Shown piece after piece: positions 179 through 5,529 of a stretch of DNA of 27,830 nt. The notes below the pieces were generated by a model. That model made no database searches, was not told the origin of the DNA, and was given only the letters and a program-made list of their open reading frames with translations. The position numbers and the translations under genes were made by a program. The first letter of the stretch is position 1. Every line of letters starts with the position of its first letter. The DNA is from a virus. Location of the stretch: the IMG/VR virus record IMGVR_UViG_3300021962_000509, positions 1-27,830 of that record. One strand, given 5' to 3'.

Positions 179-199
179 TTATTGTAAAAAGTACAATAA
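179..199. repeat. 21-bp palindrome, copy 1
   Basis: Perfect 8-bp inverted arms TTATTGTA and TACAATAA around AAAAG. One base downstream is TAATTTTG (201-208), which fits the Bacteroidota -7 consensus TAnnTTTG. The palindrome would therefore lie over the -33/-7 spacer of a possible promoter, a typical place for a repressor operator. No TTTG -33 element is present at the expected spacing. There is no T-run, so it is not a terminator. Confidence 0.75.
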
Positions 200-311
200 G
201 TAATTTTGTGCAAAGATCTTGCAAAGTAAACTAAACATATACGACGTTTTTTATACGTTACCAGGTTAACAGCCAATGAAAAAAATAAACTATATTTGAG
301 CGAATAGTTAC

Positions 312-332
312 TTATTGTAAAAAGTACAATAA
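312..332. repeat. 21-bp palindrome, copy 2
   Basis: Identical to copy 1, including the AAAAG loop. It starts 133 bp after copy 1 and 32 bp before copy 3, about three helical turns, so proteins bound at copies 2 and 3 would sit on roughly the same DNA face. Likely a binding site for a dimeric regulator or initiator (inference). Confidence 0.75.
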
Positions 333-343
333 CATAAGATCAG

Positions 344-364
344 TTATTGTAAAAAGTACAATAA
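344..364. repeat. 21-bp palindrome, copy 3
   Basis: Third identical copy. DNA downstream of copies 1 and 3 also shares a degenerate block (GCAAAGTAA followed by ACTA or CTA, near 222 and 383), as if a longer unit had been duplicated and had decayed except for the palindrome. Confidence 0.75.
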
Positions 365-1358: not shown

Positions 1359-3002
1359 ATGTTTGACAGTTCAGGTTATTCACCCAAGGATTTGGTCTTT
1401 GGAGAGAAGGGTCGCAACAAGTTGATTGATGGCATCACTAAGATTGCTGATGCAGTAAAGAGTACCCTTGGCCCAGGGGGCAATACGGTGTTGATAGAGT
1501 CACCTCATCACACTCATGGTATCACGGTTACAAAGGATGGGGTTACAGTTGCAAAGGCTGTTGACCTATTTGATCCGGTAGAGAACCTTGCGGTTAGGAT
1601 GATGAAGGAGGCGGCTGAGCGTACCGCTACTAGTGCAGGTGATGGGACTACTACCTCGATTATCTTAACAGAGGCTATGGTCCTTGAGGGGACTAAGAGG
1701 CTAACGCCTGACGTGAATCGCACTGCGGTGCTGAGGTATTTGCATAATATGTGCAATGAGGTGGTCAGTCAGTTATCGGCAAAGGCTAAGAAGGTGACAA
1801 GTAAAATGATAGCTGACGTGGCGACTATATCAGCTAATAATGACAAGGAGATAGGGCGAATAATCGCTGAGGTGTATAAGGACATCGGGAGAGATGGCAT
1901 TGTCACTGTGGAGAAGAGCCAGACCCATGAGACGTATGCTGAGACCACCAAAGGTCTAAAGATTGACAGGGGCTATCTGTCAAATATGTTCATCAACGAC
2001 CAGAAAAAGGACGAGTGCGTATTTGAGGATGTGATGGTCTTGGTTGCTGACATTGAGATAAGTAATATCTTGCAGATTGAGAACATACTAAAGCCAATTA
2101 TCACTGAGGGCAAAAAGCTACTCATCATATCGCCATGCAGCGTGAATGTGGTTAATACTCTTGCGGCAAATGTTGTAAAGGGTAACGTCAAGGTCTGCGC
2201 CATTGCTCCGCCTAACTTTGGGTATAAGCAGCACGAGCTGATGCAGGACATCGCAATAAGTGTTGGGGCCAACTACTTCAGTGAGAAAACAGGTGACGAC
2301 TTGTCGCTCATCAACTATAGCGACTTAGGCCATGCGGCAAAAGTCATTATCTCATCTGACAAGACCATTCTTCTAAAGTCAAATGCGAGAGCAAAAGCTG
2401 AGCAGGTTGACGAGAGGGTCAAGCAACTATGGGCTGGTCATGGTCTTGCAAAGCGCAAAGCTGACAAAGACTTCATACTTGAGCGCATCGCTTCACTTAC
2501 TGGTGGTATCGGTGTGATATATGTCGGAGGTAATACTGACCTGGAGCAAAAGGAGCTGTATGATCGAGTTGACGATGCAGTATGCGCAGTGAGGTCTGCC
2601 TTAGAGGAGGGTATCCTTCCAGGAGCCGGCAAAGCACTCTACGAGATTGACCATAGTAAACTATTAGGTGACTATGACAATCATGAGCTAAACGTGGCAT
2701 GGCATATCATGGACGCAGCACTTGAGGCTCCAATCAAACAGATACTTAAAAATGTTGGGCTTGACTTTGAGACGGTGTATGAGTTCTTTACTCCTGAGGG
2801 ATATGACAAGGTGCCTGACGGTTATGGGTACAATGTCAAGACCGGTGAGTTCGGAGACCTCATCAAGATGGGTATCGTTGACCCATTGAAGGTCACAAGG
2901 AGCGCGCTGCAAAACGCAGTAAGTGTGGCATCAACAATTCTTAGCACTAACGCCATCATCACAATGGGTAGGAGCTTTGAGATTAGTAATTCTAAACAAT
3001 AA
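1359..3002 (+). CDS. groEL: Phage-encoded chaperonin GroEL (Cpn60, group I)
   Basis: Cytoplasmic ATP-driven folding chamber; 547 aa, the usual GroEL length. Visible landmarks are the nucleotide-site loop STLGPGG, TKDGVTVAK (the catalytic-region Asp equivalent to E. coli D52), AGDGTTT (D87 equivalent), apical-domain blocks ADIEISNILQIENI and LLIISP, and DRVDDAVCAVRSALEEG (D398 equivalent). The family GGG just after this is GAG here (PGAGKAL). The C-terminus ends SFEISNSKQ and lacks the GGM-repeat tail of bacterial GroEL. It is the first gene after a consensus promoter and is followed 5 bp later by the MazG-like gene. Its divergence and its location with virion genes make it a phage gene rather than host contamination. 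A partner GroES lies at 4860. Likely clients are virion proteins (inference). Confidence 0.95.
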   Translation: MFDSSGYSPKDLVFGEKGRNKLIDGITKIADAVKSTLGPGGNTVLIESPHHTHGITVTKDGVTVAKAVDLFDPVENLAVRMMKEAAERTATSAGDGTTTSIILTEAMVLEGTKRLTPDVNRTAVLRYLHNMCNEVVSQLSAKAKKVTSKMIADVATISANNDKEIGRIIAEVYKDIGRDGIVTVEKSQTHETYAETTKGLKIDRGYLSNMFINDQKKDECVFEDVMVLVADIEISNILQIENILKPIITEGKKLLIISPCSVNVVNTLAANVVKGNVKVCAIAPPNFGYKQHELMQDIAISVGANYFSEKTGDDLSLINYSDLGHAAKVIISSDKTILLKSNARAKAEQVDERVKQLWAGHGLAKRKADKDFILERIASLTGGIGVIYVGGNTDLEQKELYDRVDDAVCAVRSALEEGILPGAGKALYEIDHSKLLGDYDNHELNVAWHIMDAALEAPIKQILKNVGLDFETVYEFFTPEGYDKVPDGYGYNVKTGEFGDLIKMGIVDPLKVTRSALQNAVSVASTILSTNAIITMGRSFEISNSKQ

Positions 3003-3394: not shown

Positions 3395-4243
3395 ATGAAG
3401 CATTCTTTGCATTCCTCGTTTTATCCGCACATTGACGCACATAAATTTACTGCTGTAGTAAGAAAGCTAAGACAGTTTTTTGACAATAAAGGCCTACTTG
3501 AGGTGCATACGCAAAATAGGCTGAGCATATTGGCGGCCTGCGAGGACCCATTTAATATTCGAACCTTTGCATACAATGGCAACGTGTATCCACTACCGCA
3601 GACTGGGCAGATGTGGTTAGAGCATGAGCTGCTGACACAGCCACAGGAGAAAGGGTTCTACTGCGTATCGACTAGCTATCGCAATGAGAAGAACCCAATT
3701 GAGGGGAGACACTGTTTGATATTCCCAATGTTTGAGTTTGAGTTCCATGGTACAATGAGCGACCTTGTTAAAATGGAGCATGAGCTGCTACAGTTCTTAG
3801 GCTTCGAGGGAGTAAAGGAGATGAACTACGAGGACGTGTGTAATGAGTATGGTGTTGGTATCATTGACAACGAGACAGAGGGTGCTTTGTATAAAGACCA
3901 TTCTGATGCGGTGTTGTTGATGAACTTCCCAGAGCGTACCAATCCATTCTGGAATATGGCTAGAAGCGAGGAGACAGGTCTTGCTAAAAAGATTGACGTG
4001 ATCCTCTGTGGTCAGGAGACCATTGGCTCTGCCGAGAGAGGTTGTGACATCGAGAAGATGAGAACAAAGTTCTACTCGATTGAGGGAGGCAAGTATGCCG
4101 AGAAGCTGTTCGACCTGTTCAGCCATAGCAGAGTGATGAGCGAACTTGAGGAGTTCTTTACTAATAACTTCATCCCTAGAGTAGGTGGTGGTATTGGTAT
4201 CACTAGACTTATCAGAGCTATGGAGATAAATAAATTGATTTGA
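3395..4243 (+). CDS. Minimal class II aaRS-like / asparagine synthetase A-like ligase
   Basis: 282 aa containing only the class II aminoacyl-tRNA-synthetase catalytic fold (Asp/Asn/Lys subgroup). A PQTGQMWLEHELL segment (68-80) matches the substrate-loop region (PQSPQ in AspRS). Motif 2 is FYCVSTSYRNE (88-98), followed by the FPMFEFEF strand. Motif 3 is GGGIGITRLIR (264-274), and the GGGIG form is closer to AsnA than to the GLDR of AspRS. There is no N-terminal OB-fold anticodon-binding domain, so ordinary tRNA charging is unlikely. The best candidates are ammonia-dependent aspartate-to-asparagine conversion (AsnA or the archaeal AspRS-like asparagine synthetase), or amino-acid transfer to a protein as in EpmA/GenX. 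It follows the MazG gene by 27 bp and ends at a terminator. Confidence 0.7.
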   Translation: MKHSLHSSFYPHIDAHKFTAVVRKLRQFFDNKGLLEVHTQNRLSILAACEDPFNIRTFAYNGNVYPLPQTGQMWLEHELLTQPQEKGFYCVSTSYRNEKNPIEGRHCLIFPMFEFEFHGTMSDLVKMEHELLQFLGFEGVKEMNYEDVCNEYGVGIIDNETEGALYKDHSDAVLLMNFPERTNPFWNMARSEETGLAKKIDVILCGQETIGSAERGCDIEKMRTKFYSIEGGKYAEKLFDLFSHSRVMSELEEFFTNNFIPRVGGGIGITRLIRAMEINKLI

Positions 4244-4859: not shown

Positions 4860-5117
4860 ATGCAACCAATAGGAAAATACATAGTCGTTTCGTCAATTGA
4901 CGAGGAAATCAAAACAGATTCAGGCATCATCCTTTCAGGAGACGATGCTAGCCAGTTCAGATACAAAAAGGGCAAGGTAGTAAAACCTGGCACTGATGTG
5001 TCGGTGATAAAAGAGGGTGATGTTGTCTACTACGACAAGGGCTTTTCATTCACGATGATTATCAATAACGAACAGCATACAATCATTCGGGAGAACGATG
5101 TCGTTGTTGTTTGTTAA
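4860..5117 (+). CDS. groES: Co-chaperonin GroES, roofless Gp31-like form
   Basis: 85-aa GroES, the lid of the GroEL chamber. The mobile loop EEIKTDSGIILSGDDAS (15-31) keeps the hydrophobic tripeptide as IIL (IVL in E. coli), which docks on the GroEL apical domain. Core strands match GroES: YIVV near the start, KGKVV, KEGDVVYYDKG, NNEQHTIIRENDVVVV. Between KGKVVKPG and KEGDVV there are only a few residues where E. coli GroES has the roof β-hairpin. T4 Gp31 also lacks the roof hairpin. The gene is not adjacent to groEL; the MazG, ligase and SleB-like genes lie between. The stop lies inside the convergent gene 5083-5529. The leader is A/T-rich (AATTCAATTCA). Confidence 0.93.
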   Translation: MQPIGKYIVVSSIDEEIKTDSGIILSGDDASQFRYKKGKVVKPGTDVSVIKEGDVVYYDKGFSFTMIINNEQHTIIRENDVVVVC

Positions 5118-5529
5118 AGTTATTCATTTCGATAATCATATCTTTGTAAACCTTCTCGCTATACTTAGCTTTCCTTTTTAGGAAAATAGGGTTATTACAT
5201 TTTTGAACAGGGATGTCTTGTCCGTTTAGCTTTCTGTATAAGTCAGCAACGAGAAGCTTCCCCTTATCGCTCATTTGGTAGATGGTAGCTCTCTGACCTA
5301 CCTTCTTTCGAAAGACTTCGAACCATCCGTCCTTGAGCATTTGTTGGAACCTTTGCTTGTTCCAAGGTAAAGTCTTCTCGAAATCAGCGAATCTCTCTCT
5401 ATTGAAGTAGCCTTCGGAGTACATAAAGATTAAAACATCCAGTTCTGCCTGAGATATTTTATGTTTTGCCTTGAAGTACTGACGTATTACCTTGTAATAT
5501 TTCAGATAGTCTCTTGGTGGTAAAGCCAT
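5083..5529 (-). CDS. Winged-helix-like DNA-binding protein (putative regulator)
   Basis: 148 aa and the only gene on the minus strand. The segment ISQAELDVLIFMYSEGYFNRERFADFEKTLPWNKQRFQQMLKDGWFEVFRKKVGQRATIYQMSDKGKLLVADLYRKL (25-101) has the helix-turn-helix-wing layout of MarR-like winged-helix proteins, with GQRATIYQMSDKG as the wing and next helix. The C-terminal tail is basic. It faces the long rightward operon across 79 bp containing mirrored -7 elements, so it could govern its own expression and that of the late genes. The palindromes at 179-364 are other possible targets. Its last 35 bp overlap the end of groES tail to tail. Regulatory function is inferred from fold and position. Confidence 0.65.
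   Translation of the reverse strand: MALPPRDYLKYYKVIRQYFKAKHKISQAELDVLIFMYSEGYFNRERFADFEKTLPWNKQRFQQMLKDGWFEVFRKKVGQRATIYQMSDKGKLLVADLYRKLNGQDIPVQKCNNPIFLKRKAKYSEKVYKDMIIEMNNFNKQQRHRSPE

Follow-up and report, generated by a model that had tools for sequence, protein, structure and literature searches.

Exchangeable palindromic sites between divergent gene blocks of an Elemovirus-like phage form a putative control cluster

Operators of dimeric MarR-family regulators are typically AT-rich palindromes of about 20 bp, and the iterons of plasmid and phage replication origins are tandem units of about 22 bp located in an AT-rich intergenic region. In Cluster A mycobacteriophages, which are temperate, the sites called stoperators are spread through the genome and mostly share one orientation relative to transcription, according to a published account (PMC6550527). 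Gene control is poorly charted in the phages of aquatic Bacteroidota. Here, we describe in one such phage a cluster of palindromic sites of which no published description was found in the literature searched.

Three A-type palindromes and their genomic setting

The analyzed stretch of DNA (the window, 27,830 bp) comes from an Elemovirus-like phage of about 60 kb and forms the left end of a fragment of its genome. It encodes GroEL (Cpn60; 1359-3002, + strand), GroES and a class II tRNA-synthetase-like protein, as well as a portal protein, virion proteins and a terminase. The latter shares 78% identity with its counterpart in MW202828, a circular genome of 60,850 bp from Manatee Spring, and 45% with those of the Flavobacterium elemo phages; terminase matches occur in 87 of 50,697 phage records. 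On the basis of this terminase comparison the fragment was assigned to an Elemovirus-like phage of Bacteroidota, and the predicted host group is aquatic Bacteroidota. The phage gene at 3395-4243 has a class II (D, K, N) tRNA-synthetase domain (Pfam), and its product may be an asparagine synthetase A-like enzyme.

The 21-mer TTATTGTAAAAAGTACAATAA, which consists of two arms around a short loop (TTATTGTA-AAAAG-TACAATAA), has three + strand copies, located at 179-199 (copy 1, in what we call slot 1; its arms reach 9 bp when counted as 178-200), 312-332 (copy 2) and 344-364 (copy 3). We refer to it as the A type. No further copy with up to three mismatches is present in the 27,830 bp of the window. 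Dinucleotide-shuffled sequences gave a mean of 0.03 matches and never three (0 of 100 shuffles), and in 300 shuffles of positions 1-420 no 21-mer reached two copies. Three exact copies are far beyond chance, and the three identical palindromes reported in the initial annotation are thus real; scatter of the 21-mer through coding regions, which would have spoken against a functional role, is not seen in the window, and the copies are conserved in close relatives. The starts of copies 2 and 3 lie 32 bp apart, as had been noted, and this spacing is also kept in three related loci (L017, L019 and L022). The loop had been called invariant, which holds for the copies in the window but not for the relatives, where it reads AAAAT (L017), AGAAG (L019) or CAAAG/TAAAG (L002, L003 and L006).

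In those relatives where both sides are present, the palindromes lie between the leftward early genes and a rightward block of groEL and structural genes, which opens with a conserved gene for a putative 82-aa product (722-970, + strand) followed by groEL. Directly 3' of copy 3 is a unit overlooked in the initial annotation, TTAGTTTAGAATGTAAGCAAAG (367-388, + strand; slot 4), an imperfect palindrome of the C type that is related to copies 1-3. Copies 2 and 3 and this C unit are enclosed by a 27-nt inverted repeat spanning 287-412, whose arms (287-313 and 386-412) are 85% complementary; a similar framing is visible in L010 and L019.

Site types, slot exchange and distribution among phages

The A palindromes are part of a cluster of related 21-23-bp units, to which relatives add the B type, TTAGTGT-N7-ACACTAA, and the C and D types, TTAGTTTA-N5-TAAACTAA or TTAGTTTA-N5-TAAGCAAAG (C) and CTTTGCTTA-N5-TAAGCAAAG (D). 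Alignment of eight regions, the window included, revealed that the types are exchanged at fixed positions. Slot 1 contains A in the window, L017, L019 and L010, D in L018, C in L022, and no unit in L020 and L023. The slot after copy 3 contains C in the window and L018, B in L017, L020 and L022, a B-like variant in L010 and L023, and an expanded series in L019. The GroEL proteins of L017, L018, L019, L020 and L022 are 95-97% identical to that of the window, and phages this closely related can have A, C or D in the same slot. In slot 1, the exchange alters both arms together, at four pairs between A and D, within similar flanks. Such co-variation of arms is expected for the sites of a symmetric dimer and equally for hairpins, and the units might accordingly act as RNA or single-strand hairpins, that is, as processing sites, leader structures or hairpin promoters of an injected RNA polymerase. 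The A, B and D units and the C unit of L018 could fold into hairpins of -4.0 to -9.4 kcal/mol; however, many copies have mid-arm mismatches that weaken the stem, and the units lie between the divergent promoters described below rather than downstream of either. The orientation of the AAAAG loop relative to groEL is opposite in the clade of the window and in L002/L003/L006/L011, which argues against a transcribed RNA element. No relevant Rfam match was found; the only matches were low-scoring, all below the gathering score and most of them to a GT-rich tract, and a known RNA family was rejected. The tolerated half-site variants, TTATGGTA/TACAATAA and TTATTGTA/TACTATAA, are as for DNA operators. 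Hairpin function is thus improbable, and the mid-arm mismatches, the opposite orientations and the location between promoters together favor sites that act in DNA.

The exact 21-mer was found in 11 IMG/VR contigs, nine of which are groEL-carrying relatives with the 21-mer at the same place upstream of groEL (for L010 the groEL link was taken from L051 on the same contig). The proteins that L009 shares with the window are identical, and the two may represent the same virus. The remaining two contigs are other phages: L005 has a lone copy inside an 818-residue ORF, and L001 has two A-type palindromes 43 bp apart (4085-4148), with 15-17% of one of its proteins matching records such as Crassvirales phage cr85_1. 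Arrays of 5-8 A copies with up to two mismatches, all in one orientation, were identified in L002, L003, L006 and L011, where in L003 one of the eight copies lies far away from the array; L175 is an additional array carrier. Of the 89 loci that include the start of groEL, 18 have A sites upstream of it, and these represent 11 distinct records when the window is counted; many of these loci hold less than 1 kb of upstream sequence, so that absence of A there is uninformative. No A units are present in the groEL-upstream parts covered of L024-L031 and L054-L112, and in G023-G026 there are no B units and a single C-like match with two mismatches (in G024). The units are thus missing from more distant relatives, which means that the phage group does not depend on them.

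In scans of whole records, the divergent region was the sole location of A in G008 (60.2 kb) and G010 (63.6 kb), and of B and C in G008, G010 and G018 (60.7 kb); in G021 (66.9 kb), B is likewise restricted to the divergent region and C was not found. The A content of G018 was read from its loci only, and that of G021 from locus L175 only. When any loop was allowed, A palindromes were detected in 75 IMG/VR contigs, 11 known and 64 new. A screen of neighboring sequence (130 loci, C-pattern hits included) showed that only two of the new contigs, L175 and L180 (the contig of L019), have both neighboring units and proteins of the phage group; the lone palindromes are therefore mostly chance occurrences. 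Thus, the proposal that the palindromes follow the pattern of repressor operators or origin iterons is sustained as far as it concerns their clustering in one divergent intergenic region of genomes of 60-67 kb, their positional conservation and the symmetric exchange of their arms.

The phage may alternatively have borrowed the targets of a host transcription factor. The exact 21-mer also occurs in 10 GTDB contigs, nine of them Bacteroidota by title, and it is paired in L001, which has no match to nine proteins of the window's phage group. However, each of six genomes checked has one exact copy, and matches with up to two mismatches (the pre-selected exact site included) number 14, 1, 13, 7, 14 and 8, as compared with 7, 0, 8, 7, 7 and 9 for the control, at most a slight excess. 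The any-loop palindrome is found in 3 of 395 Bacteroidota genomes, one of them being the pre-selected center, versus 4 for the reversed control, and 3 of the 10 GTDB sites fall within ORFs. Without clear enrichment in Bacteroidota, a host transcription factor was not supported, and we regard this origin of the sites as very improbable.

Flanking promoters, replication proteins and a candidate binder

The site cluster is flanked, on its outside, by two putative promoters, which we take to be of the host type from their agreement with the Bacteroidota promoter consensus. The leftward promoter PL (1-29, - strand; TTTG-N19-TAACTT) is truncated by the window edge, and its whole form, as read from L022, is TAACTTTG. 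The rightward promoter PR (661-690, + strand; TTG-N19-TACCTTTG) follows copy 3 at a distance of about 300 bp, and its TAnnTTTG element is kept in the eight aligned regions. As in an operator cluster, the repeats are two-fold symmetric, located between divergent promoters and confined to control regions; however, none of the sites overlaps or abuts PL or PR, the smallest distances being about 150 bp for PL and 270-300 bp for PR, which is unusual for simple repression. The element TAATTTTG indeed adjoins copy 1 (201-208), as described initially, but it is absent from L017, L019 and L010. A promoter at this element was considered and rejected: it is just 16 bp from the TTG at 182, fails a scan for TTG-N17-22-TAnnTTTG and is not conserved. 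The transcription start suggested near 208 is not supported, given the wrong spacing and the lack of conservation at this element.

Between the palindromes and PR is an alternating purine-pyrimidine GT/GC tract (412-545, no strand assigned). Similar tracts are present in L017, L018, L006, L254 and L032; the tract is replaced in L019, L020, L022 and L010, ACGAC-rich sequence standing in its place in some relatives.

This arrangement of AT-rich DNA, repeated units and a GT/GC tract brings in the main rival to the operator reading, namely that the cluster is part of a replication origin with initiator-bound iterons. A protein with DnaA domain IV (Bac_DnaA_C), together with a primase/helicase set, both encoded by the left-arm genes of relatives, could act there. 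Such a stand-alone protein is encoded in the early arm at L251:6398-6733, and also in L252, L253, L254 and L032. That the left arm encodes a Bac_DnaA_C protein, homologues of which are found in L252, L253, L254 and MW202828, is consistent with an origin, as are the arrays of 5-8 units in one orientation: L002, L003, L006 and L011 have several direct repeats in the size range of iterons (about 17-22 bp). In addition, the cumulative GC skew minimum of MW202828 (43,910) lies within its divergent region; however, wherever transcription diverges such a minimum is to be expected, and its position is thus confounded by gene orientation. The array spacing, 23-57 bp from start to start plus larger gaps, shows no strict helical phase, in contrast to the regular spacing near the helical repeat or its multiples that iterons have. 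The arms do not match the DnaA box, TTATNCACA. Moreover, the putative DNA-reading helix of the DnaA-C protein, whose contact residues we presume from E. coli DnaA, differs among phages that share A (NHVP, SHVP, KSPP and NHST in L251-L254, respectively), and relatives without units must replicate too. An origin function is therefore a minority reading that we consider rather unlikely.

For the operator reading, the binder suggested initially was the protein encoded at 5083-5529 (- strand). Its identity as a winged-helix protein was upheld: the AlphaFold model (mean pLDDT 69.5, pTM 0.59) retrieved 50 listed Foldseek matches, mostly of the MarR/SarA type, with query TM scores of 0.35-0.50 and a best E value of 1.3e-3, none being at or below 1e-3; the sequence profile match has an E value of just 0.06. 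We predict a MarR-like winged helix with modest confidence. The protein is a candidate because its fold suits such sites and because helix 4 (58-66) is the most variable of 140 nine-residue windows among eight distinct close homologues (12 extra residue types). Synonymous change is higher in this part as well, with 1.04 per site (44-66) versus 0.58 overall. No correlation of A sites with helix 4 residues was seen; the helices of L040, which has A, and L044, which does not, differ solely by K/R at 58. L034, on the contig of L020, encodes a 97% identical protein and has B and C units, yet no A site, so that the MarR-like protein is at most the binder of several types, and its relatives do not consistently co-occur with A sites in the small part examined of the 553 stretches in which it was found. 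Its role as binder of A sites is possible but not favored, and we found no gene that varies with the site type in either presence or sequence.

A second motif better fits as the target of this protein. A cluster of ATGTC[AG]A/T[TC]GACAT sites upstream of groEL (1109-1200, no strand assigned), with overlapping palindromes at 1117-1139 and 1134-1157, is an instance of a motif shared by relatives: 39 of 63 distinct relatives have at least two of its heptamers (ATGTC[AG]A) in the 450 bp preceding groEL, whereas the control windows gave 0 of 54 and the reversed motif 1 of 63. Its breadth matches that of the MarR-like protein, and we propose the cluster as a candidate groEL operator. A lysogeny repressor, as first implied, is not indicated; the closest complete relative is annotated with one 'repressor protein', a homologue of the 5083-5529 protein, and with no integrase.

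A putative control region and its comparison with known systems

The palindromes are most likely control sites, and with moderate confidence we interpret the three of them as putative sites of a dimeric protein within a cluster of A, B and C/D units in a divergent control region. Their occurrence, their confinement to this region, their conserved positions and the slot-by-slot exchange of types are observed directly. From these we infer binding by a dimeric protein and control of transcription as the output. A two-fold symmetric protein would occupy the 21-23-bp units of the cluster in the region between the leftward early genes and the rightward groEL/structural block; once bound, these sites, which are located upstream of PL and PR and not at the promoters themselves, would adjust or time transcription in the two directions by cooperative binding or DNA bending. 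More tentatively still, the region may be a modular switch whose site specificities are swapped by slot between near-identical genomes. Together with the fast change of the DNA-reading helix of the MarR-like protein, these swaps would record a phage control that was redirected again and again, as heteroimmunity or as an escape from a rival regulator, in phages that show no trace of lysogeny; we hold this to be a doubtful proposal. The natural swaps at fixed positions lend themselves to comparisons aimed at finding the regulator, and raise the question of why site specificity changes so fast in phages that seemingly do not lysogenize.

Other repeats were observed in the relatives. In MW202828 (43745-55154, L032), GTGTCGTTAACGACAC occurs 14 times, all in the early arm and several just 3' of stop codons. 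Phage-specific 16-bp palindromes, such as GTGTCTTCAAAGACAC, GTGTCCTCAAGGACAC, GTCTCTTCAAAGAGAC and GTCCGTTCAAACGGAC, are carried by L056, L057, L059, L063, L064, L067, L068 and L073, and further by L083, L088, L089, L095, L097, L103 and L108; 52 of 81 are intergenic (17 records, L061 and MW202828 included). Between two + genes their center is TCAA in 25 cases, TTGA in 2 and other in 14, a bias by which the orientation of the palindromes follows transcription. They resemble stoperators or RNA hairpins.

In comparison with known systems, the A, B and C/D units combine likenesses to each. Like MarR-family operators, they are AT-rich palindromes of about 20 bp in a phage that has a MarR-like protein; unlike that case, a 97% identical copy of the protein is present in a phage without A sites. 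With iterons they share the tandem arrangement of units of about 22 bp and the AT-rich intergenic location, which in a relative coincides with the GC-skew minimum, but the units are palindromic, irregularly spaced, of several exchangeable types and missing from relatives. As in Cluster A stoperators (PMC6550527), the repeats are short and their sequence varies from one close relative to another, as would be the case if binding specificity diverged. Unlike stoperators as described there, which are spread through the genome within or after genes, the sites of the window phage are found in one region only, are palindromic and occur as several types per phage. Thus, operator-like sites of this kind are known; as far as the literature searched indicates, the mixture of types and their swapping at fixed positions are new.
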